From: Methanoregula sp.
GTDB taxonomy: Archaea; Halobacteriota; Methanomicrobia; Methanomicrobiales; Methanospirillaceae
NCBI GenBank assembly: GCA_030694985.1
Contig: JAUYTV010000032.1
Coordinates: 1 to 32,767 of the forward strand
Direction of reading: 5' to 3'
Length of the DNA stretch: 32,767 nucleotides
Positions within the stretch are counted from its first letter, which is position 1. The number at the start of each line of letters is the position of its first letter. The notes under the pieces were generated by a model. It was not told where the DNA came from and made no database searches. It saw only the letters and a list, made by a program, of their open reading frames with translations. Positions 297 through 23,191 of this stretch are shown piece by piece. The translations under genes and the position numbers were made by a program.

Positions 297-310
297 AGAG
301 TATATACTCT
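297..310 (+). promoter_or_regulatory. Palindromic TATA element, candidate core promoter of arlB
   Basis: AGAGTATATACTCT is a perfect 14-bp palindrome with TATATA at its centre and a purine-rich flank. An archaeal box A here would place transcription start near 328-332 and leave a leader of about 45 nt carrying the GGTGA ribosome site at 367-371. A second TATATACT lies at 351-358, but it would give an almost leaderless transcript. The palindrome could also be an operator overlapping box A. Confidence 0.45.
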
Positions 311-375: not shown

Positions 376-954
376 ATGATTCAATATAAAACTGATGACA
401 AAGCATTCACAGGACTTGAGGCAGCGATTGTGCTGATCGCATTTGTCGTTGTCGCGGCGGTGTTCTCATACGTGGTACTCGGTGCTGGGTTCTTCACAAC
501 CCAAAAGGCACAGGAGACTGTGTACACGGCTGTTGCCCAAGCAACTTCCAATATTCAGGTTATTGGACAGGTATATGGTACAGCATCCATTCCGGCAAAT
601 GGAATTGACAATATCTCATTCTCGATTGGTCTTGCTCCAGGATCACCCACTCTGGATATTTCAAAGATGAATATTGTCTTCTCTACACCTAATGATGCTC
701 CAAAAATTTACACGTGGAGTTCTGGTGTTGCCAGCGGTACGTTATTTAGTGCCAGCGAAACCCTTGCTGGAACCACAAGGACTGGCCTACAATCCCTGCG
801 TCCACAAAACCAAACTCAGATTTCTTTTATTGTTAGTCCGGTGGTACCAAAAAATACTATTATAAATATAGAAATACGCCCATCTGTCGGTGCTGCATTA
901 CCCTTCGAAAAGATCACGCCACCGTCACTTACATCTACGAATGTACTCTACTGA
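376..954 (+). CDS. arlB: Archaellin (archaellum filament subunit)
   Basis: This is the structural subunit of the archaellum filament, exported and assembled outside the cell after removal of a short class III signal peptide. Residues 1-13 form a charged leader ending in Gly13. Residues 14 to about 40 are the conserved hydrophobic assembly helix that begins LEAAIVLIAF, followed by the archaellin-typical FFTTQKAQE. ArlK-type cleavage after Gly13 is expected. The mature protein is about 179 residues, short for an archaellin. Two N-glycosylation sequons are visible (N79-I-S, N145-Q-T). The start is fixed by the GGTGA site. Only one archaellin gene is in the window, and a 9-kb opposite-strand gene separates it from the motor genes, so it is transcribed on its own. 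Older name flaB. Confidence 0.93.
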   Translation: MIQYKTDDKAFTGLEAAIVLIAFVVVAAVFSYVVLGAGFFTTQKAQETVYTAVAQATSNIQVIGQVYGTASIPANGIDNISFSIGLAPGSPTLDISKMNIVFSTPNDAPKIYTWSSGVASGTLFSASETLAGTTRTGLQSLRPQNQTQISFIVSPVVPKNTIINIEIRPSVGAALPFEKITPPSLTSTNVLY

Positions 955-1120: not shown

Positions 1121-4100
1121 TCAATGTTCCAATTTTTTTTGTTGAATTGCAAAGTTACGGTTATTTCGCGCAATCTCATCATCCGGGTCAATCTCAATCA
1201 CTCTGTTAAATGAATCAATAGCTTCTGTATACTGTCCGAGTTTTAGTAGTGCCATTCCGTGGTTGAACCAAGCATCGGTGAAATTCGGGTTGATCGCAAT
1301 TGCTTTGTCATACGATTCGACTGCTTCTGTATATCGATTGAGATTACCTAGCGCGAATCCTCGGTTGTTCCACGCCTTTATGTAGTCCGGATTTATGGCA
1401 AGCACTTTGTCAAATGAGTCAACGGCTTCTGCATAACGCCCGAGTTCAGTTAATGCTAAACCGCGGTTATTCCACGCCTTTGCGTAGTCAGGGTTGATGC
1501 TAATTGCTTTTTCATACGAGTCTACGGCTTCTGTATACCGTTTGAGTTCAGTTAATGCTAAACCACGGTTGTTCCACGCCCCGGCAAAATCCGGGTTTAT
1601 GGCAAGCACCTTGTCGAATGAGTCAACCGCTTCAGCATACCGTCCGAGATCAGTTAAAGCTAATCCGCGATTGTTCCATGCCCCGGCAAGTTCAGGGTTT
1701 ATGGCAAGTGCCTTATCAAATGAGTCAACCACTGCTGCATGCTGTCCGATATAATGTAGTGCATTTCCGCGGTTGTACCACGCATCTGCGTAGTCAGGAT
1801 TGATGGCAATTGCTTTATCATATGAGGTGACCGCATCTGCATGTTGTCCTAGTTCACCAAGGGCTAATCCGCAGTTGTACCACGACTCAGCGTAGTCAGG
1901 AACAATGGCAATTGCCTTATCATACGAGTCGATGGCATCTGCATGTCGCCCAAGTTTACCTAGTGCGAGTCCACGGATGTTCCAAGCTTTGGCAAAATCC
2001 GGGTTGATGGCAAGCGCCTTATCAAACGAGTCGACTGCTTCTGAATACCGATTGAGATCAGTTAATGCTAATCCGTAGTTGTACCACGCCAAGGTAAAAT
2101 CCGGGTTTATGGCAAGTGCTTTGTCATACGAGGCAAGGGCTTCTGCATGCCGCCAGAGTTTACCTAGCGCGAGTCCACGGAGGTTCCACGCTTTGGCAAA
2201 ATCCGGGTTTATGGCAAGCGCCTTATCGAATGAGTCGACTGCTTCGGCATGCTGACTGAGCGTACTTAATGCAAATCCGCGGTTATTCCACACATTGGCG
2301 TCATTTGGGTTGATGGCAATTGACTGATCATACGAATCGACTGCTTTTGTAGGATGACCGAGCTTACCTAACGCAAATCCTCGGTTGTTCCACACATTGG
2401 CGTCATTTGGGTTGATGGCTATTGACTTATCATACGAATCGACTGCATCTGCATGCCGCCCGAGATCACTTAACGATAATCCACGCAGGTTCCACACTTT
2501 AGCTAAACCCGGGTTTATGGCAAGTGCCTTGTCATATGAGTTGACCACTTCTGCATGTTGTCCGAGATAATGGAGTGCATTTCCGCGATTGACCCACGCC
2601 GAGGAGAAATCCGGGTTTATGGCAAGCGCATTGTCATATGAATTGACTGCTTCTGTATACCGTTTGAGATTATCAAATGCGATTCCGAGGTTGTACCATG
2701 TAAGGGAATCATTTGGATTAATGGCAACTACTTTGTTATACGAGTTGACTGCTTCTGCATATTGTCTAAGACTGGTGAGTGTATTTCCGCGGAAGTTCCA
2801 AGCATCTACTAAATCCGGGTTGATTGCAAGCGCCTTGTCATACGAGTCGACGGCTTCTGCATCCCGACCTAGTTTACCGAGGGCAAATCCGCGTCTGTAC
2901 CATGCATTGTCGTCATTTGAATTGATGGAAAGCGACTTATCGAATGATTCGATCGCTTCTGCATGCAATCCAAGTTCACCCGACGCGAGTCCACGGTTGT
3001 ACCACGCATCAGGGTAATCAGGATTGATGGCAATTGCCTTGTCATATGAGTCGACCGCATCTGCATATTTTCCAAGTTTACTGAGCGCGAATCCGCGTTT
3101 GAACCACACAGTGGCATCATTTGGGTTGGCGGAAAGCGCTTTATCGAGTGAGACAACTGCTTCTGCATGCTGTCCAAGATTACCTAGCGCTAATCCGCGG
3201 TTGTACCATGCATCGGTGTAGTCAGGAACAATGGCTATTGCCTTATCATACGAGTCAACGGCTTCTGCATCCCGACCAAGTTTACCGAGGGCTAATCCCC
3301 GGTTATACCACGCATCAGCGTAGTCAGGAACAATGGCAATTGCCTTATCATACGAGTCAACGGCTTCAGCGTGCTGTCCGAGTTTACCGAGGGCTAATCC
3401 ACGATTGTACCACGCATCGGCGTAGTCAGGAACAATGGCAATTGCCTTATCATACGATTCAACTGCTTTTGCGTGCTGTCCGAGTTTACCGAGGGCTAAT
3501 CCCCGGTTGTACCACGCATCGGTGTAGTCAGGAACAATGGCAATTGCCTTATCATACGATTCAACTGCTTCAGCGTGCTGTTCGATTTTACCTAGCGCTA
3601 ATCCACGATTGTACCATGCATTGGCGTAGTCAGGAACAATGGCAATTGCCTTATTATATGATTCAACCGCATCTGCATGCCGACTAAGTTTCATTAGCGT
3701 AAGTCCGTGGTTGTACCACACACTGGCGTGCAGTTCGAGTTCACCTAACGCCAATCCACGGTTGTACCACGCATCGGTGCAATCTGGCTTTATGGCAAGC
3801 GCCTTTTCAAATGAATCGACTGCTTCTGCATACTGATTGAGTTCGTTTAACGCTAATCCACGTTTGTACCACACACTGGCATCATTTGGGATGATAGCCA
3901 GCGCCTTATTAAATGAGACTACCGCTTCTGCATGCCGGCTGAGTTCGCTTAACGCTGTTCCGCGTTTGTACCAAATACGGGCATCATCCGGATTGATGCC
4001 AATCGCCTTATCGAATGAGTCGACCGCATCTGCATACCGCCCAAGTTTACCTAGCGCGAGTCCACGGATGTTCCATACATTGGCAAAATCCGGGTTAATC

Positions 4101-7100
4101 GTAAGCGCCTTATCGAATGACTCGACAGCTTCTGCATACTGTCCAAGTTTACCCAGCACAAATCCACGGTTGTACCACGAATCAGCGTATTCAGGATTGA
4201 TGGCAACCGCCTTATCGAATGTGTCGACCGCATCTGCATACCGGCCGAGTTTAATTAAAGCTAATCCACGGTTATACCAGGCATCGGCGAAATCCGGATT
4301 GATAACTAATACTTTGTCATACGAGTCGATGGCTTCTGCATGTTGTCCAAGTTCACTTAATACCAATCCGCGGTTGTACCAAGCATCGGCGAAATATGGA
4401 TTGATAACTAACACTTTGTCATACGAGTCAACGGCTTTTGTATGTTGTCCAAGTTCACTTAATACCAATCCTCTGTTGTACCAAGCCAATGTGAAATCCG
4501 GGTTGATGGCAAGTGCTTTGTCATACGAGGTCAGGGCTTCTGCATGTTTTCCAAGTTTACCCAGCGTAAGTCCACGAAGATTCCACGCTTTGGCAAAATC
4601 CGGGTTTATGGCAAGTGCTTTGTCATACGAAGTCAGGGCTTCTGCATACTTTCCAAGTTTACCAAGCGCAAGTCCACGGAGATTCCACGCTTTGGCAAAA
4701 TCCGGGTTGATAACAAGCGCTTTGTCATATGAAGTCAGGGCTTCAGCATACTGCCCAAGTTTACCCAGCACTAATCCCCGGAGGTACCACGCATCTACGA
4801 AATCCGGGTTGATAGCAAGCGCCTTGTCATATGAAGTCAGAGCTTCAGCATACTGCCCAAGTTTACCCAGCATTAATCCATGGTTGTACCACGCATCAGT
4901 GCAGTCAGGAGCGATAGCAATTGCCTTTTCAAATGAATCGACCGCATCTGCATGCTTTCCAAGTTTACCCAGCATTAATCCGCGTTGGTACCACACACTG
5001 GCATCCTTTGGATTGATGACAACTGCTTTTTCAAATGATCCGACTGCTTCTGCATACCGATTGAGTTTGCTTAACGCTAATCCTTGGTTGTACAAGGCAT
5101 CAGTAAAACCAGGGTTGATGGCAACTGCCTTATCAAATGACTCGACCGCCTCTGAATGGTGTCTAAGTTTATCCAGTACTAATCCGCGATTGTACCATGC
5201 ATTGACGTATTCAGGATTGATGGTAACTGCCTTGTAAAATGAGTCAACCGCCTCTGAATGGTGTCCAAGTTTATCCAGTACTAATCCGCGATTGTACCAT
5301 GCATTGACGTATTCAGGATTGATGGTAACTGCCTTGTCGAATGAGTCGATCGCTTCTGAATGGTGTCCAAGTTTATCCAGTACTAATCCGCGATTGTACC
5401 ATGCATTGACGTATTCAGGATTGATGGCGAGTGCCTTTTCGAATGATTCTACCGCTTCTGCATACTGTCCGAGATCCCTTAACGCTAATCCACTGTAGTA
5501 CCAGGCATCAGTGTATTCAGGATTGATGGCGAGTGCCTTTTCGAATGATTCTACCGCTTCTGCAAGTTGTTCGAGATCACTTAACACTAATCCTTGGTTG
5601 TACCATGCATCAGCGTATTTTGGATTGATGACAACCGCTTTTTTAAATGAGTTGACCGCTTCTGCATGCTGCCCAAGTTCACGTAACGCTAATCCCTGGT
5701 TGTACCATGCATCAGCGTATTCAGGATTGATGACAACCGCTTTTTTAAATGAGTTGACCGCTTCTGCATGCTGCCCAAGTTCACGTAACGCTAACCCGCG
5801 GTAGTACCACGCATCGACATGTTCAGGATTTATGGTGAGCGTCTTTTCAAATGAGTTGACCGTTTCTGCATACTGTCCAAGATCCCATAACGCTAATCCG
5901 CTGTTGTACCAGGCATCGGTGTAGTCAGGGTTGATGGCAAGTGCCTTGTCATAAGAGGCGACCGCATCTGCATATTGTCCAAGTTCACCAAACGCCAAAC
6001 CGTGGTTGTACCATATATCAGCGAGACATGGGTTGATGGCAATTGCCTTTTCATATGAGACGATGGCTTCTGCATATTGTCCAAGAGCCCTTAACGCTAA
6101 TCCATGGTTGTACCATGCCAAGGTAAAATCCGGGTTGATGGCTATCGCCTTATTAAACGAGTCGACAGCTTCTGCATACTGTCCGAGATCCCTTAACCCT
6201 AATCCTCGGTTATGCCATGCCAAGGAAAAATCCGGGTTAATGGCAAGCGCCTTGTCATACGAGGCAATGGCTCCTGCATGCCGACAGAGTTCATTTAACG
6301 CAAATCCACGGTTGAACCATGCATCGACGTATTCAGGACTGATGGCAACCGCATTGTCAAATGATTCAACCGCTTTGGCATGCTGCCCAAGTTCACTTAA
6401 CGCTAATCCGTGATAGTACCATGCATTGGCGTGTTTGGGATTAATGGCAAGTGCCTTTTCAAATGAATCGACAGCTTCTGCATGTTGTCCAAGTTCCTCT
6501 AACGCTAATCCGCGGTTGAACCATGCATCGGTGTAGTACGGATTGATGGCAACAGTCTTGTCGAAAGAGTCGATGGCTTCATCCAGATGGTCCAGATCAA
6601 TTAACGTTAATCCACGGCTGTACCATGCAAGGGTGAAATCCGGTTGGATGCTAACTGCCTTGTCAAACGAGTCGACGGCTTCAGTCTGACGCGCCAGATC
6701 ACATAACGCTAAGCCGCGGTTGTACCATGCTAAGGTAAAATCCGGCTTGATGGCTATCGCCTTGTCAAATGAATCAACGGCTTCATCATCCAGACCAAGA
6801 TTAATCAGTGCCAATCCCCGGTTGTACCATGCCAGGGTAAAATCCGGTTTGATGGCAATGGCTTTATCAAAGGAGTCGATGGCTTTTGCATGCTGACAGA
6901 GATCATTGAATGCTAATCCCCGGTTAACCCACGCCCCAGCGAAATCCGGGTTGATGGCAATTGCCTTGTCATACGAGGCAATGGCTTCTGAATGCCGACC
7001 AAGTTCACTTAACGCTAATCCGCAGTTGTACTGCAGACGGGCATCATCTGGCGTGATTGCGATTGCCTTGTTATACGAGTCCACCGCATCTGAATACTGA

Positions 7101-10100
7101 CCGAGATTATCGAGTGCATTTCCGCAGTTGATCCACGCATTGGAAAAATTCGGGTTTATCATTACCGCTTTTTCATACGAGTCTACGGCTTTGGCATACT
7201 GTCCAAGTTCACTTAAAGCTAGTCCACGGAAGTTCCACACTTTGGCGAGATCTGGACTGATGGCAAGCGCCTTGTCATATGAGTCAACCGCTTCTGCATG
7301 TTGTCCTAGTACATTTAACGCAAATCCACGGTGGTACCATGCATTGACATCATTTGGGTTGATAGCAACCCCTTTGTCATACGAGGCAATAGCTTCTGCA
7401 TGCCGACCGAGTTCCGTTAGTGCAAATCCACGATTGTACCAAGTATTGGCGTCATTTGGGTTGATAGCAATTGCCTTATCAAAAGATACGAGTGCATCTG
7501 AATCCTTACCGAGCATCACCAGTGTGAGTCCGTGGTTGCTCCACGCATTAGCGTCATCTGGGTTGCCGGTTATTGCCTTTTCATATGAGGTAAGGGCCTC
7601 TTCATAACGATCTAGTTCACCCAGCGCAAATCCGCAGTTGTACCATGCATCAGCAAAATCAGGGTTGATGGCAAGCGCCTTGTCATATGAGGCAATGGCT
7701 TCTTCATGCCGATCGAGATCATTTAATGCTAATCCGCGGTTATACCATGCATCAGCAAAACCTGGGTTTATGGCAATTGCCTTGTCATATGTGTTGATTG
7801 CCTCTTCATGTCGATCGAGATTATCGAGCGCATTTCCGAAATTGACCCACGCATCGTAGTAATCCGGGTTGATGGCAATTGCTTTTTCATACGAATCAAG
7901 TGAATCTGCATGCCGGTTAAGCATCCCCAGTGCGAGTCCATGGTTGTTCCACGCATTTGCGTCATTTGGGTTGATGGCAATTGCCCTGTCATACGAATCG
8001 ACTGCTTCTTCATGCCGATCTAGTTCACCTAACGAGACTGCGCGGTTGTACCACGCCTTGGCGTAGTCCGGGTTGTTGGCAATTGCCTTTTCATACGAAT
8101 CGACTGCTTCTGCATGTCGTCCAAGTTCCCCGAGCGCGAGTCCGCGGTTATATCCCGCATTGGCGTCATTTGGGTTGATAGTTAACGCTTTGTCATATGA
8201 GTCTACAGCATCTGCAAGTCGTCCAAGTTCACTTAACGTTAATCCGCGGTTGTACCACGCCTTTGCGTATTCCGGTTTGATGGTAAGTGCTTTGTCATAA
8301 GAGGCAAGGGCTTTTGTATGCTGTCCAAGTTCACCCAGCGTAAATCCGCGATCGTACCACGCATTGGCGTCATTTGGGTTGATGGTAATTGCCCGGTCAT
8401 ACGAGTTGACTGCGTCTGCATACTGACCAAGTTTATCCAGCGCGACACCGCGATTAACCCACGCAACAGCGAAATTCGGGTTGATGGCAATCGCCCGGTC
8501 ATACGAGTTGACCGCTTCTGCATGCCTGCCGAGATCACTTAATGCTAACCCACGGTTGTTCATGGCATCAATGCAGTCTGGTCTGATGGCAATGGCCTTG
8601 TCATATGAGGCAATCGCTTCTGAATACCGACCGAGAGAACTTAGCGCAAGTCCATGGAAGTTCCACGCTTTGGCGAGATCTGGCCTGATGGCAAGCGCCT
8701 TGTCATATGAGGCAACCACTTCTGCATGCCTGCCGAGATTACTTAACGAGAGTCCGCGGTTGTACCACACACTGGCGTCCGTTGGATTGAGGGCAATTGC
8801 TTTGTCATATGAGTCGACTGCTTCGGCATGCCGACCGAGTTTCCCTTGCGCCAGTCCTTGGTTGCTCCACGCATTTGCATCTGTTGGATCGATGGCAAGT
8901 GCCTTATTTAATGAGTCAACCACTTCAGCATGCTGTCCAAGATAATGGAGCGAGTTTGCGCGGTTGTACCACGCATTGGAGTCATTTGGGTTGATGGCAA
9001 TTGCCTTGTCATACGAGTCGACCGCCTCTGCATGCCGATCTAGTTTACCTAACGAGAGTCCGCGGTTGTACCACGCCTTTGCGTGTTCAGGCATGATGAC
9101 AATCGCCCTGTCATACGAGGCAACCGCTTCTGCATGCCGTTCTTGTTCACCTAGCGAGAGTCCGCGGTTGTACCACGCACTTGCATCATCCGGCTTTATG
9201 GCATTTGCTTTGTCATACGAGTCAACTGCGTCTGTGTGCAGTCCGAGATTACCCAGCGCGTTTCCGCAGTTGAGCCACGCATTGGAGAAATCCGGGTTTA
9301 TGGCAATCGCCTTGTTGTACGAGGTGACTGCTTCTTTATATTGACCGAGATTAGCAAGCGCGTTTCCGCGGTTATACCACACACTGGCATCATCAGGCTT
9401 TACGGCATTTGCTTTGTCATACGAATCTACTGCTTCTTTATATCTACCGAGATTACCCAGTGCGTTTCCGCGGTTGGCCCAGGCATTGGAAAAATCCGGG
9501 TGTATGGCAATAGCCTTGTCATATGAGTTGACCGCTTCTGCATATTGACCGAGATTACCCAGTGCATTTCCGCGGTTGACCCATGCATTGGAAAAATACG
9601 GATTGATGGCAATTGCCTTGTCATATGAGTCGACTGCTTCTGAATAACGACCGAGATTACCCAGAGCATTTCCGCGGTTGACCCATGCCGAAGCATAGTC
9701 CGGGTTTATGGCAATTGCCTTGTCACAAGATTCGACTGCTTCTGTATGCCGTGTGAGATGATGAAGTGCATTTCCGCGGTTGACCCATGCATTGGAGAAC
9801 TCCGGGTTTATGGCTATTGCCTTGTCATATGAGTCGACTGCTTCTGAATACCGACCGAGATTACCCAGCGCGTTTCCCCGGTTAGCCCATGCATTGGAAA
9901 ACTCCGGGTTTATGGCTAGTGCTTTGTCACAAGATTCAACTGCTTCTTCATGCCTTTTGAGATGATGGAGCGCGTTTCCGCGGTTAGCCCAGGCATTGGC
10001 GTTTTGAGGATTGATGGCTATTGCCTTGTCATATGAATCAACCGCTTCTGAATACCGACCGAGATTTCCCAGTGCATTTCCGCGGTTAACCCATGCATTG

Positions 10101-10216
10101 GAAAAATCCGGATTTGCGGCAATCGCCTTGTCATACGATGCGACTGCTTCTGAATACCGACCGAGATTGGCAAAATCAACCCCTTCATTATAATATTGCA
10201 TTGCCCGGTCTTCCAT
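1121..10216 (-). CDS. Giant TPR-repeat protein (3031 aa) inside the archaellum locus
   Basis: The protein is built almost entirely of tetratricopeptide repeats, helix-turn-helix motifs that stack into a superhelix and bind proteins. A four-residue head is followed by 88 full 34-residue units and one 17-residue half unit, then a 17-residue helical cap ending KKLEH. The arithmetic closes exactly over residues 5-3014 or 6-3014. Units carry the classical TPR signature (W4, G8, Y11/H11, A20, A27, P32), typically AWYNRGLALGKLGQHAEAV. No signal peptide, membrane segment or catalytic domain is visible, so it is probably cytoplasmic. The frame is open for 9.1 kb, which argues for selection. No Shine-Dalgarno is seen; an A/T-rich box about 25 bases upstream (10237-10244) suggests a leaderless transcript. 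It lies antiparallel between arlB and arlCE. A scaffold role for the archaellum pole is inference only. TPR identification is certain; function is unknown. Confidence 0.93.
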   Translation of the reverse strand: MEDRAMQYYNEGVDFANLGRYSEAVASYDKAIAANPDFSNAWVNRGNALGNLGRYSEAVDSYDKAIAINPQNANAWANRGNALHHLKRHEEAVESCDKALAINPEFSNAWANRGNALGNLGRYSEAVDSYDKAIAINPEFSNAWVNRGNALHHLTRHTEAVESCDKAIAINPDYASAWVNRGNALGNLGRYSEAVDSYDKAIAINPYFSNAWVNRGNALGNLGQYAEAVNSYDKAIAIHPDFSNAWANRGNALGNLGRYKEAVDSYDKANAVKPDDASVWYNRGNALANLGQYKEAVTSYNKAIAINPDFSNAWLNCGNALGNLGLHTDAVDSYDKANAIKPDDASAWYNRGLSLGEQERHAEAVASYDRAIVIMPEHAKAWYNRGLSLGKLDRHAEAVDSYDKAIAINPNDSNAWYNRANSLHYLGQHAEVVDSLNKALAIDPTDANAWSNQGLAQGKLGRHAEAVDSYDKAIALNPTDASVWYNRGLSLSNLGRHAEVVASYDKALAIRPDLAKAWNFHGLALSSLGRYSEAIASYDKAIAIRPDCIDAMNNRGLALSDLGRHAEAVNSYDRAIAINPNFAVAWVNRGVALDKLGQYADAVNSYDRAITINPNDANAWYDRGFTLGELGQHTKALASYDKALTIKPEYAKAWYNRGLTLSELGRLADAVDSYDKALTINPNDANAGYNRGLALGELGRHAEAVDSYEKAIANNPDYAKAWYNRAVSLGELDRHEEAVDSYDRAIAINPNDANAWNNHGLALGMLNRHADSLDSYEKAIAINPDYYDAWVNFGNALDNLDRHEEAINTYDKAIAINPGFADAWYNRGLALNDLDRHEEAIASYDKALAINPDFADAWYNCGFALGELDRYEEALTSYEKAITGNPDDANAWSNHGLTLVMLGKDSDALVSFDKAIAINPNDANTWYNRGFALTELGRHAEAIASYDKGVAINPNDVNAWYHRGFALNVLGQHAEAVDSYDKALAISPDLAKVWNFRGLALSELGQYAKAVDSYEKAVMINPNFSNAWINCGNALDNLGQYSDAVDSYNKAIAITPDDARLQYNCGLALSELGRHSEAIASYDKAIAINPDFAGAWVNRGLAFNDLCQHAKAIDSFDKAIAIKPDFTLAWYNRGLALINLGLDDEAVDSFDKAIAIKPDFTLAWYNRGLALCDLARQTEAVDSFDKAVSIQPDFTLAWYSRGLTLIDLDHLDEAIDSFDKTVAINPYYTDAWFNRGLALEELGQHAEAVDSFEKALAINPKHANAWYYHGLALSELGQHAKAVESFDNAVAISPEYVDAWFNRGFALNELCRHAGAIASYDKALAINPDFSLAWHNRGLGLRDLGQYAEAVDSFNKAIAINPDFTLAWYNHGLALRALGQYAEAIVSYEKAIAINPCLADIWYNHGLAFGELGQYADAVASYDKALAINPDYTDAWYNSGLALWDLGQYAETVNSFEKTLTINPEHVDAWYYRGLALRELGQHAEAVNSFKKAVVINPEYADAWYNQGLALRELGQHAEAVNSFKKAVVINPKYADAWYNQGLVLSDLEQLAEAVESFEKALAINPEYTDAWYYSGLALRDLGQYAEAVESFEKALAINPEYVNAWYNRGLVLDKLGHHSEAIDSFDKAVTINPEYVNAWYNRGLVLDKLGHHSEAVDSFYKAVTINPEYVNAWYNRGLVLDKLRHHSEAVESFDKAVAINPGFTDALYNQGLALSKLNRYAEAVGSFEKAVVINPKDASVWYQRGLMLGKLGKHADAVDSFEKAIAIAPDCTDAWYNHGLMLGKLGQYAEALTSYDKALAINPDFVDAWYLRGLVLGKLGQYAEALTSYDKALVINPDFAKAWNLRGLALGKLGKYAEALTSYDKALAINPDFAKAWNLRGLTLGKLGKHAEALTSYDKALAINPDFTLAWYNRGLVLSELGQHTKAVDSYDKVLVINPYFADAWYNRGLVLSELGQHAEAIDSYDKVLVINPDFADAWYNRGLALIKLGRYADAVDTFDKAVAINPEYADSWYNRGFVLGKLGQYAEAVESFDKALTINPDFANVWNIRGLALGKLGRYADAVDSFDKAIGINPDDARIWYKRGTALSELSRHAEAVVSFNKALAIIPNDASVWYKRGLALNELNQYAEAVDSFEKALAIKPDCTDAWYNRGLALGELELHASVWYNHGLTLMKLSRHADAVESYNKAIAIVPDYANAWYNRGLALGKIEQHAEAVESYDKAIAIVPDYTDAWYNRGLALGKLGQHAKAVESYDKAIAIVPDYADAWYNRGLALGKLGQHAEAVDSYDKAIAIVPDYADAWYNRGLALGKLGRDAEAVDSYDKAIAIVPDYTDAWYNRGLALGNLGQHAEAVVSLDKALSANPNDATVWFKRGFALSKLGKYADAVDSYDKAIAINPDYPDAWYNRGLASGELGLHAEAIESFDKSLSINSNDDNAWYRRGFALGKLGRDAEAVDSYDKALAINPDLVDAWNFRGNTLTSLRQYAEAVNSYNKVVAINPNDSLTWYNLGIAFDNLKRYTEAVNSYDNALAINPDFSSAWVNRGNALHYLGQHAEVVNSYDKALAINPGLAKVWNLRGLSLSDLGRHADAVDSYDKSIAINPNDANVWNNRGFALGKLGHPTKAVDSYDQSIAINPNDANVWNNRGFALSTLSQHAEAVDSFDKALAINPDFAKAWNLRGLALGKLWRHAEALASYDKALAINPDFTLAWYNYGLALTDLNRYSEAVDSFDKALAINPDFAKAWNIRGLALGKLGRHADAIDSYDKAIAIVPDYAESWYNCGLALGELGQHADAVTSYDKAIAINPDYADAWYNRGNALHYIGQHAAVVDSFDKALAINPELAGAWNNRGLALTDLGRYAEAVDSFDKVLAINPDFAGAWNNRGLALTELKRYTEAVDSYEKAISINPDYAKAWNNRGLALTELGRYAEAVDSFDKVLAINPDYIKAWNNRGFALGNLNRYTEAVESYDKAIAINPNFTDAWFNHGMALLKLGQYTEAIDSFNRVIEIDPDDEIARNNRNFAIQQKKLEH
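3200..3700 (-). repeat. Block of near-identical 102-bp TPR units
   Basis: The marker GTCAGGAACAATGG recurs at 3221, 3323, 3425, 3527 and 3629, exactly 102 bp apart each time, with very similar flanks. At the protein level these are the consecutive units containing IAIVPDY. This points to recent tandem duplication or gene conversion. A single isolated copy of the marker recurs at 1895. Confidence 0.85.
3725..3775 (-). repeat. Half TPR unit (51 bp) interrupting the 34-residue period
   Basis: Here the spacing between equivalent repeat positions is 153 bp (3629 to 3782) instead of 102, the only break in register that the length arithmetic requires. The 17 residues DAWYNRGLALGELELHA form one helix A, followed directly by the helix A of the next unit; helix B is missing. 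An exact half-unit deletion in frame explains it. Confidence 0.85.
5130..5465 (-). repeat. Three near-identical consecutive TPR units
   Basis: The string CTAATCCGCGATTGTACC begins at 5179, 5281 and 5383, exactly 102 bp apart, with nearly identical surrounding sequence. The encoded units share NAWYNRGLVLDKL. This is a second locally homogenised block in the array. Confidence 0.85.
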
Positions 10217-10236
10217 GAATTACAATCTACGATTCA

Positions 10237-10244
10237 GATAATTA
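10237..10244 (-). promoter_or_regulatory. Candidate box A of the giant TPR gene
   Basis: On the minus strand this reads TAATTATC, about 25 bases upstream of the ATG at 10216. That is the spacing expected for a leaderless archaeal transcript, and no Shine-Dalgarno is present. Confidence 0.35.
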
Positions 10245-10657
10245 CTGTTTTCATTGGTATCATCACAAAACAATGTGTCTATGATTATTGTTTTTAACCG
10301 GTAATCTGTGTAACCTTTCGTAATGGAAATGGATCTTCATTATTTTTTAAATGCACGAATCGGCACGTTTTTTTTTTAAAAGTGTCGTTCTGTGCCATTT
10401 TCTTATTGCAGGACACTTTGATATCTGGATTTGATATTGTGAAATTTTAACACACAGTAACGGTATCCGGATATCATTTAAGTTTGGCAAAAGCGAAATA
10501 CACCCGGTGATATCGCACCGCCACTTCTTTTTATGAATCCGAAATCCAGGACTTGATGAAAAGTTAATAAAACGAATTCATTTATCCTGCAAAAACCAAA
10601 AAAAATTCCTGAAATTAAATATCGATCCCGATTTACGCCGCTTTAGAGGTAAGAATG

Positions 10658-10682
10658 TTTATTAGTAACTAATCTAATATAT
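10658..10682 (+). promoter_or_regulatory. Candidate promoter/operator of the arl motor operon
   Basis: TTTATTAG (10658-10665) could be a box A placing the start near 10687, ten bases before the ATG. It overlaps the inverted repeat ATTAGT-A-ACTAAT (10661-10673), so a repressor there could block TBP. TCTAATATAT nearer the ATG is an alternative box but lies too close. No Shine-Dalgarno precedes the gene. Confidence 0.35.
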
Positions 10683-10696
10683 CGCATAGATACACT

Positions 10697-11716
10697 ATGG
10701 CAGTAAACCAGTCGCAGGTAGATCATATTATCACTGCCGCATCTGAGGATGACCCCGAGGTCAAGCTCCAGAACCTCGAACGGGAAGTCGACCTGATAAA
10801 AACCTCCATCAAACGTCTTTTAATGGATATCCGTGAACGGATGAATGAACTCGAAAATCCATTTACGCTTACTGCAGTGGCCGGGGGATCGTCCGGTCAT
10901 TCAATATCAGCTGCTGAAGTTGAGGCCGGAGAAGCAAAAAGATCAGCTCTTGAAGCGCGGGAAGCTGCCCTTGATGCCCGTGAATCGCAGATAGAATCAA
11001 CCAAATCGAAAAATGAGACAGAAAAATATAAGGCAGAATCTGCAAAAGAAGCCGAAAGATCTCACTCTCCTGTCACTCAATATGAAGCAGAACGAAAAAT
11101 GTTAGATGAGCAGATGCTCGCTGCCTTAAGAAATCAGATGACAGGTCCTCCCATGGCAAGTCCGCCTGGTTATCATCCTGCAAGTCAACCTTCATATCTT
11201 CCGGCAGGTTTCCCTTCTAATTCCCCTGCAAGTCAGCCTGCAAGAACAGCAATGCCCCCACCGTCAATTCCGATAAACGAGAAGCTTCGTCTCCAGAAGG
11301 TGTATAAACTCTTCAAATGGACAACCCAGTCGGTAAAAAAATTCGGACATGATCGTCTTGAGATCATTTTGGGTTCTTACCAGGCGATGGGGTATATCTC
11401 CAAAGATTCCTGCGATGAGATACGGGAGATTTCCCGCCTGATGCCCGCAAATCTGGGCGAGGAGCATGAAGTGGGTCCAGACGAATTCGTTGCTGAGCTC
11501 TATGCTTTAAACCGTATCCTCTCCCCGACAGACACATCTCTGGACCGGGATATGATTGAAGTGATGATGGAACAGCGCCAGCAGGATCTGCCGGTAAAGG
11601 AAAAATCCAGTGAGCCAAAATTGAATATTTCGGGCATCTCTATGAGAGAACGCTCCTCCCCATCAAAGAGCAAAGAAAATGATGAAGACTGGATGAACCT
11701 TCCCGACAGGATCTGA
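10697..11716 (+). CDS. arlCE: Archaellum cytoplasmic protein ArlCE / ArlD-E domain protein
   Basis: Cytoplasmic archaellum component of the FlaC/FlaD/FlaE group, which surrounds the motor in Euryarchaeota and receives the chemotactic signal through CheF. Residues about 20-55 form a predicted coiled coil (FlaC-like). Residues 75-145 are charged helical sequence rich in A, E and K. Residues 150-190 are a proline/serine-rich linker. Residues about 193-280 match the Arch_fla_DE domain (KVYKLFKWTTQSVKKFG through FVAELYALNRIL). A charged tail follows. It is the only gene with a D/E domain in the window, so it may serve for C, D and E together. It is the first gene of the motor operon; the next starts three bases after its stop. 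Family assignment is firm, the C/D/E letter less so. Confidence 0.85.
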   Translation: MAVNQSQVDHIITAASEDDPEVKLQNLEREVDLIKTSIKRLLMDIRERMNELENPFTLTAVAGGSSGHSISAAEVEAGEAKRSALEAREAALDARESQIESTKSKNETEKYKAESAKEAERSHSPVTQYEAERKMLDEQMLAALRNQMTGPPMASPPGYHPASQPSYLPAGFPSNSPASQPARTAMPPPSIPINEKLRLQKVYKLFKWTTQSVKKFGHDRLEIILGSYQAMGYISKDSCDEIREISRLMPANLGEEHEVGPDEFVAELYALNRILSPTDTSLDRDMIEVMMEQRQQDLPVKEKSSEPKLNISGISMRERSSPSKSKENDEDWMNLPDRI

Positions 11717-11719
11717 TAC

Positions 11720-12190
11720 ATGTCTGCCGAGACCATCACCACTGCTATTTTCTTAATTACCGCAGTAGTTGCAACAGCAGTGCTTGTGAATGCAATTTAC
11801 CCGGTCATCTACAGTACTGCGGGAACATTCCAGTCTTCCACGCATGACGCGGACACGAGACTCCGTACGGATTTTAAGATTGTTGCAAATTTTGCCTCGC
11901 CCGCTGGCACTGCCGATATATACATGAAAAATATAGGAAGCCAGAGGATATCAACAGCAGAAATCGCAAATGCAAATGTTTTTTGCGGTAAGACTGTAGG
12001 CAACCTGCTTACCTATGGTGTTACTTGGAGTGCAGACATCGTTCCTGCCGATGACACTTACTGGGATACGGGTGAGACACTTCATATCCACGCAACGACA
12101 TCAATCGATGCAGGCAAAACGGTTTATTTCCAGTTTGTTCTTCCGAACGGGATCTGGCGATCTCAGGAATTCAATGCTGAGTCGAGCTGA
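11720..12190 (+). CDS. arlG: Archaellum stator-like protein ArlG
   Basis: A 156-residue protein with one N-terminal hydrophobic helix (residues about 6-30) and a C-terminal beta-rich domain outside the membrane. The pattern MSAETITTAIFLITAVVA, then a charged RLRTDFKIV stretch, a YMKNIGS core strand motif and a late GETLHI/VLPNG segment fits FlaG. ArlF and ArlG form a complex that contacts the S-layer and is thought to act as the static part of the motor. It starts three bases after arlCE. ArlF and ArlG resemble each other, and the two labels here could be exchanged. Confidence 0.75.
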   Translation: MSAETITTAIFLITAVVATAVLVNAIYPVIYSTAGTFQSSTHDADTRLRTDFKIVANFASPAGTADIYMKNIGSQRISTAEIANANVFCGKTVGNLLTYGVTWSADIVPADDTYWDTGETLHIHATTSIDAGKTVYFQFVLPNGIWRSQEFNAESS

Positions 12191-12196
12191 CGCACC

Positions 12197-12700
12197 ATGG
12201 CTGTCGCTGAGATAATCGGAGCTGCCATCGGGGTTATGATGCTGGTTATTGTGGCATACATACTTGTGGGTAGCGTACTCACCACAACGGATGTAGTCTT
12301 AAATGCACAAAAAGATAGTACGCTGCTACAGGGGGCACGATTGGGGACCACTATAGAAATCGCCTCATATGGTAATAGCACATTTGACCCGTGGCTGAAT
12401 TTCAATGTCACGAATAACGGAAATGAAATGATCACAGATTTTGAACATATGGATGTTTTTATCTTCACCAGTTCTCCACTCCAGCATCTCACCTACGAAG
12501 CATCAGGAGATAATTCGGGCAAGTGGAGAAAGATAGGGATTTATTCAGGTCCTACCCTTAACGACGCAGAGGTCATTCATCCCAACCAGCTGGATCCCGG
12601 TGAGAAAATGTGGGTTTGTGCAACCTATAACAATGCAGATCTTATAAAATGGTTCCAGATCACAACAGGCAATGGGGTAAATGCTCAGACAACAATATAA
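12197..12700 (+). CDS. arlF: Archaellum stator-like protein ArlF
   Basis: A 167-residue protein with an N-terminal membrane helix (residues about 4-28) and an extracytoplasmic beta-sandwich-like domain containing LNFNVTNNGNEMI and the LDPGEKMWV motif typical of ArlF/ArlG domains. ArlF binds S-layer protein in other archaea and pairs with ArlG. It starts six bases after arlG and precedes arlH, matching the G-F-H-I-J order I recall for halophile/Methanomicrobiales-type clusters. Gene order and the N-terminus made me choose F. Confidence 0.72.
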   Translation: MAVAEIIGAAIGVMMLVIVAYILVGSVLTTTDVVLNAQKDSTLLQGARLGTTIEIASYGNSTFDPWLNFNVTNNGNEMITDFEHMDVFIFTSSPLQHLTYEASGDNSGKWRKIGIYSGPTLNDAEVIHPNQLDPGEKMWVCATYNNADLIKWFQITTGNGVNAQTTI

Positions 12701-12710
12701 CAATATTAAA

Positions 12711-12715
12711 AGGAG
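12711..12715 (+). promoter_or_regulatory. Strong Shine-Dalgarno of arlH
   Basis: AGGAG lies seven bases before the ATG at 12723. It is the clearest ribosome site in the arl operon and fixes the ArlH start. Confidence 0.7.
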
Positions 12716-12722
12716 TTCCTGA

Positions 12723-13454
12723 ATGGCAACCATTTCCGATCTGATGGGGGGCGAAGACCGGCGAATCCTCTCCACAGGCAACGCGGAACTGGATAAAAAG
12801 ATCGCAGATGGTCTCCCGCTTGAATCGCTCACCCTTATCGAAGGAGAAAATGACACCGGAAAGAGTGTATTGACCCAGCAGATCATCTGGGGTGCAATGA
12901 AACAGGGATTTTGTGTTGACCTCTTCACCACTGAGAGTACAACGAAAAGTTTTCTCAAACAGATGGAGTCAATGAGCCTGGATATCTCCGAGTATTTTGC
13001 CTGGGGCTACATCAAGGTTTTTCCCCTTCACGTAACCGGATTTGAATGGAAAAAAGAAGACATGGTCGGAATCCTTGCACATCTGATATCCTTTATCAAG
13101 GAGAGCAAAGCAGAGGTAATTGTCATAGATTCACTCACCTTATTTACTGAATATGCACAAACGGATTCTATCCTTGCTTTCTTTACCAGCTGCAAATCCC
13201 TTGTTGACAAAGGAAAGACAATCCTTGTCACACTTCATACCTATGCATTCGAAGAAGATACTCTTGTGCGGATACGTTCCATATCAGATGCCCACCTGAA
13301 CATGAAAAAAGCTCAGGTAGGCGACAAATATGTGATGGTAATGGAGGTGAACAAGGTACGCGGTGCAAGAAAGACTACCGGAAACCTTGTAAGTTTTGAA
13401 GTTCATCCGGGTTATGGAATGAAAGTAATCCCCATGAGCTTTGCGAGGGTTTGA
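12723..13454 (+). CDS. arlH: Archaellum KaiC-like ATPase-fold protein ArlH
   Basis: ArlH is a RecA/KaiC-family nucleotide-binding protein that sits under the motor platform and interacts with ArlI. The Walker A motif is GENDTGKS at residues 41-48, and the Walker B strand is EVIVIDSLT with Asp136. As in other ArlH proteins, the residue after that Asp is Ser rather than a catalytic acid, so it may bind ATP with little hydrolysis. At 243 residues it is the usual length for the family. It stops one base before the ArlI ATG, so translation is probably coupled. Confidence 0.92.
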   Translation: MATISDLMGGEDRRILSTGNAELDKKIADGLPLESLTLIEGENDTGKSVLTQQIIWGAMKQGFCVDLFTTESTTKSFLKQMESMSLDISEYFAWGYIKVFPLHVTGFEWKKEDMVGILAHLISFIKESKAEVIVIDSLTLFTEYAQTDSILAFFTSCKSLVDKGKTILVTLHTYAFEEDTLVRIRSISDAHLNMKKAQVGDKYVMVMEVNKVRGARKTTGNLVSFEVHPGYGMKVIPMSFARV

Positions 13455-13455
13455 T

Positions 13456-15324
13456 ATGGGTACGCTCACCGTTGCAGTCAACCTTCCATACAAGCCCGAA
13501 GTGGTTGATTCAGATGTAGATTTTTACAATGATATCGAATCAAGTCCGCTTTACAAAATGCTTCCGGCTAATGCCAAAGAATATGTAAAAGCAAGTCCGC
13601 ACCTGCTCGAATATCTTCATACATTTCCGGTAAACACCTATGGCATCCCGCTCTTTTTATCGGAATTGAAAAAAGATCTCCGCAAGATGGAGAGTCCCAA
13701 TATCATTTATCCGGTCAATGAAACCACATTTATCCATATCCTTCCCGATCCAGATGATGTCAGAAATTTTTACATTCCTATTGAACCTTCGTTCCTCCAT
13801 AACGTGAATATGATGATGCCGGCCATTGAGATCAAACTTGTAGACTTAATTGATGGTCTGGAAGAAGATCCAATCAGCGACAAGGAGCGGTCAGAAGTCA
13901 TTAAAAAGATGCTGGCTCTTGTTACTGTTATCCGTCCAAAAGGTGTGCCACTTGCCCAGCTCACCGGGGGGGGTGCACAAGGTCAGGATATGAAATCCAA
14001 ACTTACGACATTTTTAAAAACGGACTTCTCGGCAAAAGACAAGATGAAAAATGTCAAAAAGAAGCATCAGGTGCCCCAGACCCCTGAAGGAAAAGTGATC
14101 CTGACAAACGAGGAATACCGGGCCATTGAATACCTGTTAGTGAGGGATAAGATCGATATGGGGGTACTAAAACCCTTCCTTTCTGACAATTATATTGAAG
14201 ATATCTCCTGTGATGGTGTCGGTCCGATCTTCATTGAGCACAAGATCTTCAAAGGCTTAAAATCGGTTATTGAATTCACAGTATCAAGCGAGCTTGACGA
14301 ATTTGTTGTCAGAATGGCAGAAAAGATCAAGCGCCCCATCACTTACAGAAGTCCGATTGTTGATGCCACACTGCCGGATGGTTCACGTATCAATATTGTC
14401 TACGGAACTGCCATCAGTCGCCACGGAAGTAACTTTTCTATCCGTAAAGTGAACGAAGTCCCGCTTTCAATCTTAAACATCATTGAAAGCAATGGTCTTG
14501 ACTACCTGTCTGCGGCGTATCTCTGGATCTGTGCAGAGTACGGTATGTCACTATTCGTTTCAGGGGAAACTGCAAGCGGAAAAACAACCCTGTTAAATGC
14601 CATCACCGGGTTCATACCCCCGGAGAACAAGATAATTACCATCGAAGATACTCCGGAGCTGACTGTTCCCCACAGGAACTGGATCCGGGAAGTTGCACTT
14701 GCAAAAGGTAAAGGATCCGGTGGGGGGACCGGTGGTGAAGTGACCATGTTTGACCTGTTAAAGGCCGCCCTGCGTCAGCGCCCCAACCAGATCCTTGTCG
14801 GTGAAATCCGTGGAGAAGAAGGGGCCGTGGCGTTTGGTGCCATGCAGACAGGTCACCCTGTCATGAGCACTTTCCACGCAGCATCGGTTGAAAAACTCAT
14901 CCAGCGTCTCTGTGGAGATCCAATCAATATTCCAAGGACGTATGTGGATAACTTAAACCTTGTCGTCATCCAGAGTGCAGTCAAGCGCCCGGACGGGCAG
15001 CTGGTGCGGCGGATGATCAGCTGTAATGAACTGGTGGGGTTTAACCCGGAAACCCAGGGGTTTACCTTTGTGGAAATGTTCAGCTGGGAACCGGTTTCCG
15101 ATACATTTACCTGGAGCGGAAAAGGCAGTTCATTCCTGCTGGAAAATAAGATTGCCACCATGCTCGGGATGCCTGAGAATAAAAAGTCAGAGATCTACCT
15201 TGAAGTGGAAAAACGTGCAAAAATTCTTGAACGCCTGCATAAAGCCGGGTACACCAAGTTCTGGGATCTGTTTCACATGATGACAAAGATCAAGAAACAG
15301 GGACTCCTGCAGATTGGTTCCTGA
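13456..15324 (+). CDS. arlI: Archaellum motor ATPase ArlI
   Basis: Hexameric secretion-superfamily ATPase of the T2SS/T4P type that drives both archaellum assembly and rotation. With the ATG at 13456 the protein has 622 residues. The Walker A GETASGKT is at 370-377 and the Walker B region ILVGEIRGEE starts at 446. The following GHPVMSTFHA is the His box. The N-terminal about 230 residues are longer than the minimal ATPase and contain a lysine-rich linker near 185-205. The frame could begin at TTG 13441, inside arlH, but the ATG has GAGGG six bases upstream and lies one base after the arlH stop. Confidence 0.93.
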   Translation: MGTLTVAVNLPYKPEVVDSDVDFYNDIESSPLYKMLPANAKEYVKASPHLLEYLHTFPVNTYGIPLFLSELKKDLRKMESPNIIYPVNETTFIHILPDPDDVRNFYIPIEPSFLHNVNMMMPAIEIKLVDLIDGLEEDPISDKERSEVIKKMLALVTVIRPKGVPLAQLTGGGAQGQDMKSKLTTFLKTDFSAKDKMKNVKKKHQVPQTPEGKVILTNEEYRAIEYLLVRDKIDMGVLKPFLSDNYIEDISCDGVGPIFIEHKIFKGLKSVIEFTVSSELDEFVVRMAEKIKRPITYRSPIVDATLPDGSRINIVYGTAISRHGSNFSIRKVNEVPLSILNIIESNGLDYLSAAYLWICAEYGMSLFVSGETASGKTTLLNAITGFIPPENKIITIEDTPELTVPHRNWIREVALAKGKGSGGGTGGEVTMFDLLKAALRQRPNQILVGEIRGEEGAVAFGAMQTGHPVMSTFHAASVEKLIQRLCGDPINIPRTYVDNLNLVVIQSAVKRPDGQLVRRMISCNELVGFNPETQGFTFVEMFSWEPVSDTFTWSGKGSSFLLENKIATMLGMPENKKSEIYLEVEKRAKILERLHKAGYTKFWDLFHMMTKIKKQGLLQIGS

Positions 15325-15325
15325 T

Positions 15326-16960
15326 ATGGTTGATGTTTCAAAAGCCTCAAAAGATAAACCGGCAAAGAAAGAGATCCCCTTTGCGTCTATTGTAAAAGGA
15401 CTCAAAGAAAAATTTAATAATTTTTCTGAAGCAAAACAGATGCCAGCAGATCTGCTCTTTATGATAACGTACCTGGCATCTCTGGGACTTGCCAATGCCA
15501 CCCGTCCTGAAATTTTTTCCTATGGTGGCAACAGAAAAGAGTACATATCTGCTATTTACATCGAAAAAGTGGATACGTTTGCCAAGAAATGGGGTTTTAG
15601 TTATTCCGAATCGTTAAGCATTGTAGCCGAACGCGTTAGTAACACCAATCTCAGGAGTCTGCTCGACAGGTATGCAAATGCGATTGAATCCGGTGTTCCT
15701 GATGACGATTACCTAAATAACGAGCTCTCAACCGTCCGAGCCGTGTACCGGAGCCAGGTGGAGCAGGGACTCGAGATGCTTAAAAAATGGGGAGATGCCT
15801 ATATTGCCATGCTCCTTTCAGGAACCGTGATAGCTGTAGTCATGATGATCTCGATTGCCATTTATGCTCCATCCGGGATTCAGAGCACATTGAATGTTGC
15901 CTATGGAATTGTTTTTGCCATCTCCCTTGGGGGCAACGTGCTCATGTATACATCGGTTCCCTATGATCCAAAATCCCATGGTCTGATGACCCGTGCATCG
16001 AAAGAGCAGGATACCGTTCATGCCATGGAAAGGATCATCGTACCTGTCACCATTATCGCAATTATTGTCCTTGTGCTGCTCGGTGTTCACGCAGGATTAA
16101 TTTTTCTTCTTGTAGGAATCTTAATGGCACCGCTGGGTATCATTGGCTTTATTGATGATTCCAATATTACGCTTCGGGATGCAGATTTTTCAACATTCAT
16201 CAGCAGCCTTGGGGCAATCATGGGAGGACAGGGTTCTACTGCAGTAACCGCGCTTGGAAAGATCGATCGCAAATCACTCCCCGCTATTGAATATCTGGTT
16301 AATTCTGTTTATTCCAAAATGAATCTTGGTCTGGATAATAAACAGATCTGGGATAAATTCATCGGGGAATCCGGAAGCAACCTGATCTACAAATACTTAA
16401 ATATCTATTTAGATACCGTTACGCTTGGCGGTCCTGCAGAACCCATAGGTAAAGTGGTGGGATCTTCAGTACTTGAACAGACACTCCTTAGAGAAAAGAA
16501 AGATATGCATGCCAAAAGTTTTTTTATTCTCCTTATTCCGATGCATATCGCAATGATAGGAATTTTTGTCGGGCTCTACCAGATCATGGTAGTCCTGACG
16601 AGTTCCGTATCAAAAATGATGACTACATTCCAGCAAACATCGGTTGCCGCAGCTGGATCAGCAAGTGGGGCCGCAAGTGGGGCCGGTGTGTCTGCGGGTT
16701 CTGCTATGGGCGGAATGACCATGCTCACAAACTTTCCTGAAAAGGAGATGATGACCTTTGTTGTCATTATTTTAACCATCATCACTGTATCCAATATCTT
16801 TGCTGCACGGATAGTAGGGGGAGGGGATCGGTATATGTATTATTTCTACATAGCAATATTCTGTACATGTACCGGATTTGTATTGCTCGTAGCACCAACT
16901 GTAGTCGGTATGTTCTTCAACCCTGAAGCACTCCAGCAAATGGGTTCATCAGTAAAATGA
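15326..16960 (+). CDS. arlJ: Archaellum membrane platform protein ArlJ
   Basis: Polytopic membrane protein of the GspF/TadC type that forms the platform with which ArlI interacts. From ATG 15326 it has 544 residues. Hydrophobic segments are visible in two clusters: near residues 165-290 (starting AYIAMLLSGTVIAVVMM) and near 395-540 (from FFILLIPMHIAMIGIFV to the C-terminus). Between them is a large cytoplasmic charged domain. An Ala/Gly/Ser-rich loop near residues 440-465 lies between two C-terminal membrane segments and is an unusual low-complexity insertion. The upstream TTG at 15314 is an alternative start, but the ATG lies one base after the arlI stop. Confidence 0.9.
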   Translation: MVDVSKASKDKPAKKEIPFASIVKGLKEKFNNFSEAKQMPADLLFMITYLASLGLANATRPEIFSYGGNRKEYISAIYIEKVDTFAKKWGFSYSESLSIVAERVSNTNLRSLLDRYANAIESGVPDDDYLNNELSTVRAVYRSQVEQGLEMLKKWGDAYIAMLLSGTVIAVVMMISIAIYAPSGIQSTLNVAYGIVFAISLGGNVLMYTSVPYDPKSHGLMTRASKEQDTVHAMERIIVPVTIIAIIVLVLLGVHAGLIFLLVGILMAPLGIIGFIDDSNITLRDADFSTFISSLGAIMGGQGSTAVTALGKIDRKSLPAIEYLVNSVYSKMNLGLDNKQIWDKFIGESGSNLIYKYLNIYLDTVTLGGPAEPIGKVVGSSVLEQTLLREKKDMHAKSFFILLIPMHIAMIGIFVGLYQIMVVLTSSVSKMMTTFQQTSVAAAGSASGAASGAGVSAGSAMGGMTMLTNFPEKEMMTFVVIILTIITVSNIFAARIVGGGDRYMYYFYIAIFCTCTGFVLLVAPTVVGMFFNPEALQQMGSSVK

Positions 16961-18320: not shown

Positions 18321-19130
18321 ATGACGGAAGTACCGGTAAAAATTGAGTTCAACAAAGAATGGATCGTCACTAAACTGGCTGTAAGTGAAGATCGTCTGGT
18401 AATTCCGGCTCCGATAAACAAAGAGATCCTTTTTAAGTCCGTCTTAGATGTTTCTGAAAAGAAAAGCATTCTCATCATTACCGTAAAAACGGACGTTGAA
18501 GTAGTTTATAAAATACTCTCCGTTGAAAAAGTGCTCCAGTTTTTAAAAGTACGCATTCTCCCGCTCTGCAATGCGTATCGGCTCATGGCGTACTTCATGT
18601 CGCCGGCCATACGGGGTGGAGTGATGATCAAAGAAGCCTCATGGGAGAAGGGAAGTGTAGTTGTTGTCAAAAGCGGCATATGGTTTGTCAGTGCGGCAAA
18701 ACAGATCAGTGTTCCCATCACCGAAGTAGCAGCAATAGAGCTCACCAAACGGGATGTACAGGGAAAACCTACCGAAGTGATAAAAATCGATTATCTCGAA
18801 TCAGCTGAAGTGGTCTCAAGCCTTGTGCTCTGTCCCATATCAACCCTTCAGGTTCTTTATAATTTCTTAAAAGATACCACAAAAAGCATGGATATGAAAG
18901 GAACAGAGCTTGACGGCGTTGACCAGCAGGTAGCCATGCTCGTATATTCTGGAATGGACTCACATGCCATTGAAAATATGTTAACCATCCCTCACAAACA
19001 ACTCGACCAGATCTATGATAAAATATTATCCCTCGGTCTTGCTGAAGTGGTCGTTATCAGAAGAGAAATTCAGCTCTCGCCTAAAGGTGTAAGATATATT
19101 ACAGATGCCACCAAATCCCAAACAAATTAA
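18321..19130 (+). CDS. cheF: Archaeal taxis adaptor protein CheF
   Basis: CheF (formerly DUF439) is found only in archaea and connects phosphorylated CheY with the archaellum proteins ArlCE/ArlD. The 269 residues show the family layout: an N-terminal beta-rich region with IVTKLAVSEDRLVIPAPI, a middle part with a PITEVAAIELTKRDVQGK-type strand pair, and a C-terminal winged-helix-like segment (about 205-269) ending LAEVVVIRREIQLSPKG. It is the first gene of the che cluster and directly follows the arl operon, as expected for the link between both systems. The start is supported by the TTGAGG stretch and the box A spacing. Confidence 0.9.
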   Translation: MTEVPVKIEFNKEWIVTKLAVSEDRLVIPAPINKEILFKSVLDVSEKKSILIITVKTDVEVVYKILSVEKVLQFLKVRILPLCNAYRLMAYFMSPAIRGGVMIKEASWEKGSVVVVKSGIWFVSAAKQISVPITEVAAIELTKRDVQGKPTEVIKIDYLESAEVVSSLVLCPISTLQVLYNFLKDTTKSMDMKGTELDGVDQQVAMLVYSGMDSHAIENMLTIPHKQLDQIYDKILSLGLAEVVVIRREIQLSPKGVRYITDATKSQTN

Positions 19131-19159
19131 AAAATACCCCTGTTTTATTACCAATACCT

Positions 19160-19166
19160 CTATATG
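19160..19166 (+). promoter_or_regulatory. Candidate internal promoter before cheY
   Basis: CTATATG lies about 33 bases before the cheY ATG in the 68-base gap after cheF, and no Shine-Dalgarno is present. A near-leaderless cheY transcript is possible, in addition to read-through from cheF. Confidence 0.3.
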
Positions 19167-19198
19167 CAATCATCTCACAAATTGTAATTTGATCGTCA

Positions 19199-19561: not shown

Positions 19562-19563
19562 TT

Positions 19564-22552: not shown

Positions 22553-22559
22553 GTGAGAC
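22553..22559 (+). promoter_or_regulatory. Ribosome binding site of cheC
   Basis: GGTGA occupies most of the seven-base gap between the cheA stop and the cheC ATG at 22560. It supports that start. Confidence 0.6.
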
Positions 22560-23174: not shown

Positions 23175-23191
23175 AAAACCAGTGACAAAAA

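Follow-up and report, generated by a model that had tools for sequence, protein, structure and literature searches.

A selected 88-unit TPR array beside arlCE in one Methanoregula lineage: a probable cytoplasmic adaptor in a variable slot of the archaellum gene cluster

The presence of a giant gene built of TPR units within the archaellum (arl) gene cluster of a Methanoregula genome poses the question of whether its product belongs to the archaellum or whether the gene has come to lie there by rearrangement. The window analysed here is a stretch of 32,767 nucleotides, namely contig C3, from its first base, of genome G000 (2.49 Mb in 58 contigs). As the first-pass annotation of this DNA had described, a single intact frame encoding 88 TPR units with short caps lies on the minus strand between the archaellin gene and the motor operon (Table 1), and both the open reading frame and the unit counts agree with that description, as do the neighbouring genes. 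The favoured reading, held at a probability of roughly 0.6, is that the gene encodes a cytoplasmic adaptor superhelix of one Methanoregula lineage, equipped with its own promoter and lodged in a variable slot of the cluster; the protein probably does not belong to the regular parts of the swimming motor.

Table 1. Positions of the TPR gene, its parts, its neighbours and related genes (window coordinates unless a genome, contig or locus is named).
Feature	Position	Strand	Remark
Giant TPR protein gene	1121..10216	minus	3031 aa; 88 complete 34-aa units and one half unit
N-terminal cap MEDRAM	10199..10216	minus	leads straight into unit 1
Units 3-33	6833..9994	minus	unit order and groove residues kept unit for unit in two further species
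Half unit, 17 residues	3722..3772	minus	aa 2149-2165; conserved in G098; modelled within a continuous 30-residue helix
C-terminal cap EIARNNRNFAIQQKKLEH and stop codon	1121..1177	minus	common to G098 C14 and G089 C83
33-bp leader, probable TPR promoter	10217..10249	minus	almost unchanged across the clade and in the copy of the sister species
arlCE leader, probable promoter	10647..10696	plus	50 bp; kept also in G089, where the slot lacks a TPR gene
Archaellin	376..954	plus	3' neighbour of the TPR gene in G000 only
ArlCE-like switch protein gene	10697..11716	plus	divergent neighbour of the TPR gene; identity from sub-threshold Arch_fla_DE match (E 0.0099) and position before arlGFHIJ
arlG, arlF, arlH, arlI, arlJ	11720..16960	plus	downstream of arlCE
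433-aa gene	16957-18258		between arlJ and cheF
cheF, cheY, cheB, cheA, cheC, cheD	18321..23683	plus	after the arl genes
Perfect palindrome GAGTATATACTC	298-309		~65 bp before the archaellin start
Small TPR genes of genus g12	L075:12085-12816, L076:12329-13057, L077:10414-11175, L218:6504-7274, L219:4462-5202	opposite to arlCE	
Genus-wide TPR giant	G000:C11, L153:11417 to L154:5429; also L273, L279, L281, L284, L286, L289, L290		

The frame starts with ATG and remains open over all its codons with no internal stop, for which the chance is ~10^-72 at the base composition of the window (46% G+C). The predicted product (334 kDa, pI 5.0) holds its complete units in strict register, and 85 stretches of it match Pfam TPR_1; the single half unit is an addition to the earlier description. 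The TPR signature W4-G8-A20-F/Y24-A27-P32 is present along the array (W in 84, G in 87, A in 82 and P in 87 of 89 by column counts). Asparagine occupies position 6 at 68 of the 89 unit starts, which we take to be reminiscent of the asparagine ladder of O-GlcNAc transferase (OGT). No hydrophobic stretch was found along the predicted sequence, and neither a signal peptide nor a membrane segment was seen at the N-terminus; the protein is presumed to be cytoplasmic. Caps resembling the N-terminal one also occur in G098, G106, G089 and G082, while the C-terminal cap, tried as a marker across the family, gave a strong match only in G098 and G089.

Modelling of the segment around the half unit with AlphaFold2 gave a pLDDT of 95.6 when an alignment of window segments and orthologues was supplied (a single sequence gave 41). 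The best Foldseek match of this modelled segment is 9qhb (E 3e-18), the nearest structures being engineered or consensus TPR superhelices and the TPR domain of OGT. By its unit signature and its modelled helix-pair solenoid, the protein is assigned to the TPR superfamily. The half unit, located ~72% of the way along the array, fuses in the model with the next A helix into one 30-residue helix (model residues 101-130), and this conserved element is predicted to break the superhelix. The rise of TPR arrays is ~0.9 nm per unit, a geometry that would make the full array a superhelix roughly 80 nm long. The CTPR superhelices (PDB 8bu0, 8chy, 9qhb), nearest by both sequence and fold, share the consensus 34-residue unit and the uninterrupted superhelix, whereas the window protein is natural, has 88 units instead of 8-16, is broken once by a half unit and carries unit-specific grooves that appear to be under selection. 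The OGT TPR domain (PDB 1w3b) is also a long TPR superhelix, but the window protein has about eight times more units and no C-terminal glycosyltransferase domain: a short cap follows its last unit, and no such domain stands among the best 25 of 49 Pfam families.

Comparison with orthologues indicates that this array is maintained. The frame is intact in G000 and open frames occur in two relatives; units pair one to one between species at constant offsets (scores of 156-180 against a best of <=56 in 20 shuffles), with differences of one and two units in number in the N-terminal part. Across 35-40 one-to-one units in three species pairs, dN/dS amounts to 0.21-0.25, which is higher than for ArlH/ArlI (0.04) and ArlCE (0.16) yet clearly purifying, and the natural 88-unit array is therefore held under selection. 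The specificity positions of TPRs (2, 5, 9, 12, 13, 33 and 34) lie on the concave face (PMC1261162). For each position, the identity between orthologous units was set against that between non-matching units, and the resulting unit-specific identity (kappa) is 0.42-0.53 at groove positions, 0.20-0.26 at other positions and 0.12-0.20 at fourfold sites; the difference between groove and other positions is of modest strength (permutation p 0.002-0.02 in three non-independent pairs). Along the protein, the groove signal is confined to units 3-33, and from unit 34 on the grooves of G000 and G098 have no specific match save for a general similarity over units 54-65, round the half unit. DNA identity reaches 95% for units 48/49, and the copies within units 48/49 and 66-69 span 83-95%, which argues for ongoing duplication.

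These features can be brought together in a putative mechanism. Extended segments of partner proteins may lie in the concave groove of the superhelix, where the identity of groove residues in roughly the first 33 units would set which partner binds where. The array would have grown through tandem duplication of units, its C-terminal part still growing with units replaced faster than species diverge, and the one conserved half unit would interrupt the superhelix. The selected array combines groove chemistry fixed unit by unit at its N-terminal end with fast turnover at the other.

With regard to the association with the archaellum, the DNA upstream of arlH was read in 39 loci of the family, a few contigs ending too early to judge. 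Archaellin genes directly precede arlCE in most of these loci, and elsewhere in the family the slot before arlCE holds opposite-strand genes for a PMT-like membrane protein, AbiTii proteins or pyruvate kinase. Besides G000, the giant TPR gene occupies this slot only in G098 and, as found via a genus-wide search, G106, and no other readable arl locus of the family has it. In a tree built from seven concatenated proteins, the three genomes form one clade (support 0.97-1.0) with G089 as sister. The slot of G089 harbours SpoIIE, HATPase and STAS genes; an aminotransferase and a PsiE-like gene fill that of G103, and the run of genes in G085 resembles it. In five other families of the order, 14-kb stretches were read at 40 arl loci: archaellins adjoin arlCE in most of them, and no TPR gene lies anywhere in these stretches (0/40). 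Further, the N-terminal 340 aa of the protein, searched against 199 genomes drawn evenly from the order, retrieved clear relatives (E <= 1e-95) from just two genomes among the matches listed, G089 and one from another family, the latter with a 971-aa frame; neither G098 nor G106 features among these matches. Named sequences related to the window ArlCE come from Methanoregula and Methanomicrobiales MAGs and reach 85% identity.

Since the gene holds this slot in these three genomes only, is lacking from all 40 loci read in other families and is replaced by other genes in the slot, its placement beside arlCE is a single event in one small clade. The earlier proposal that a giant TPR gene recurring beside arlCE in other Methanomicrobiales would support a link with the archaellum is thus answered in the negative, and the recurrence with arl genes across lineages that is expected of a conserved arl accessory was not found. 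The same annotation had held that orthologues lying only away from arl genes would refute the link; all three collinear orthologues adjoin arlCE. A small TPR protein (2-5 TPRs found) encoded near arlCE in genus g12, in all five genomes whose contigs reach that position, was considered as a possible recurrence and rejected on its small size, its signal-like N-terminus and the adenine deaminase gene that stands between it and arlCE in G039.

The two divergent genes also have separate leaders. The 33 bp before the TPR start are almost identical in G000, G098, G106 and the unlinked copy of G089, and occur once more, ahead of a 328-aa TPR gene of G089. Because the TPR leader is kept in a copy away from arl and the arlCE leader in a slot that lacks the TPR gene, each leader is independent of the other. 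None of the palindromes tested is common to the archaellin, arlCE and TPR leaders, and the perfect palindrome upstream of the archaellin gene is absent from the TPR-arlCE intergenic region.

In several members of the subclade (G098, G087, G089, G103 and G085), the motor operon is separated from the archaellins and the NAD kinase, FBPase and eIF5A genes that accompany them, the archaellins of G098 being on a contig other than that of its TPR-arlCE pair. The window opens at the start of its contig, so that its view upstream ends with the single archaellin. Contig C32 of G000 carries the NAD kinase/eIF5A region and stops at the gene usually found ahead of archaellins; it probably continues into C3, although no overlap between the two was found. 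In G098, the TPR gene is spread over two contigs: C26 bears the first 1385 aa beside arlCE, while C14 bears 1784 aa with the same C-terminal cap beside cca, ligT and nrdD. Their units align in order with units 3-43 and 42-89 of G000, respectively, with the half unit found again at the matching position; by this collinearity and the shared half unit, the two parts are very probably one gene of ~3133 aa, the contig ends showing no exact overlap but a near match. If so, the pair with arlCE is common to both genomes, with a different 3' neighbour of the TPR gene in each (archaellin in G000, cca in G098). This could mean that the linkage is favoured and is the sole argument for it, and common descent accounts for it equally well. 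In the sister G089, the 5' part of a similarly capped TPR gene follows grpE, dnaK and dnaJ on C95, and a 3' part on C83 is followed by a DUF4277 gene, of a kind often associated with transposases; this copy is cut by contig ends, and the two parts may belong to one gene.

A second TPR giant occurs in the same genome, as a frame of 4668 codons on contig C11, and nearly every Methanoregula genome holds such a giant of 3.8-5.4 kaa, or pieces of it. In most genomes examined, it is flanked by an aminotransferase on one side and a small-TPR/MTase/dnaJ/dnaK/grpE cluster on the other, a STAS-histidine kinase replacing the chaperone side in G035, G065 and G042. It also occurs in three genomes (G060, G077, G086) that yielded neither ArlCE nor a true ArlH, and is hence a conserved protein independent of archaella. 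The window protein resembles it in being giant and TPR-rich but differs in locus, as it sits at arlCE and not at the aminotransferase/MTase-dnaJ-dnaK-grpE site, and in its units, which are only 31-38% identical. The genus-wide giant is the better experimental target and merits a study of its own.

Which explanation do these observations favour? The adaptor reading has to be weighed against one in which the chaperone neighbourhood is telling: the protein may be a co-chaperone-like scaffold along whose groove nascent or Hsp70-bound clients gather, and a diverged relative of the dnaK-linked giant. TPRs are classical chaperone adaptors. HOP is one example (PMC1261162), and both the sister homologue in G089 and the genus-wide giant adjoin grpE-dnaK-dnaJ genes; the two dnaK genes are, however, different paralogues (43% identical), the units of the two giants are as divergent as stated above and the window copy is away from dnaK, which together render this reading rather unlikely. 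A recruited, clade-specific part of the archaellum or chemotaxis pole is unlikely as well. Here, the giant would bind ArlCE or CheF via its conserved N-terminal groove and organise motors beneath the membrane, by analogy with SgmX of Myxococcus xanthus, which consists solely of TPRs (14 of them) and was shown by experiment to activate type IV pili, machines to which the archaellum motor is related, at the cell pole (PMC7668184). The divergent arrangement with arlCE in all three species with collinear orthologues, despite a changed other neighbour, accords with such a role, as does the fact that the polar cap protein is unidentified (PMC5517150, PMC8978795); if true, the giant would be a clade-specific addition to the archaellum in G000, G098 and G106 and a candidate for a cap protein of that sort. 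Against it are the lack of recurrence outside one clade, the sister homologue away from arl, the mutually independent leaders and the lack of a palindrome in common with the archaellin promoter. The Pyrococcus cap is a sheet ~3 nm thick and ~35 nm from the membrane (PMC5517150), at odds with the inferred rod of ~80 nm, though these dimensions neither demand nor exclude one. In the literature searched, no paper dealt with this protein or with any TPR protein at the archaellum.

Two further readings dispense with partner binding. The near-uniform units, the long frame and the similar length of the probable G098 orthologue are what a passive rod, spacer or ruler would show, for which length matters and surface does not; it would not predict grooves conserved unit by unit, as an adaptor would, and it sits badly with the differences in unit number, such that the pure ruler entertained in the first-pass annotation fits poorly and is quite improbable. 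Selfish or neutral repeat expansion devoid of function would account for the ongoing turnover of units and for the unmatched units from 34 on, but selection on the N-terminal half already speaks against it and, given dN/dS of ~0.25, open frames in three genomes and the conserved half unit and grooves, it is very improbable. The adaptor superhelix remains the best account. The TPR gene, with its own short promoter, would have arrived before arlCE a single time, in the common ancestor of the three Methanoregula species, and because of this single arrival its position is most likely incidental to rearrangement in a variable slot and not the mark of a conserved archaellum component. Of the scaffold initially thought conceivable at the archaellated pole, a cytoplasmic TPR scaffold (intact, under purifying selection and of TPR fold) thus stands, while the polar link is not supported, for want of recurrence and in view of the sister copy with chaperone genes; the alternative then offered, chance insertion of an unrelated gene, gives the best fit. 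The gene is consequently dropped as a candidate among conserved polar-cap proteins, and it illustrates that a position inside the arl cluster can be accidental.

A few minor observations concern the surrounding cluster. The 433-aa gene between arlJ and cheF matches no Pfam or NCBIfam entry and is kept across the genus, with 35-37% identity in genus g12. In G085 (C16; L139/L162), a remnant arl operon retains arlCE and arlG next to a shortened cheB, with arlH, arlI and arlJ gone, which suggests a recent loss of the archaellum; in G089 (C235; L040/L159), arlI is tandemly duplicated with a shortened arlJ between the copies. Several species harbour an opposite-strand gene of 650-670 aa after the archaellins or before arlCE (L047, L050, L207, L208), two copies of which weakly match PMT_2 or glycosyltransferases, and which possibly serves in archaellin glycosylation.
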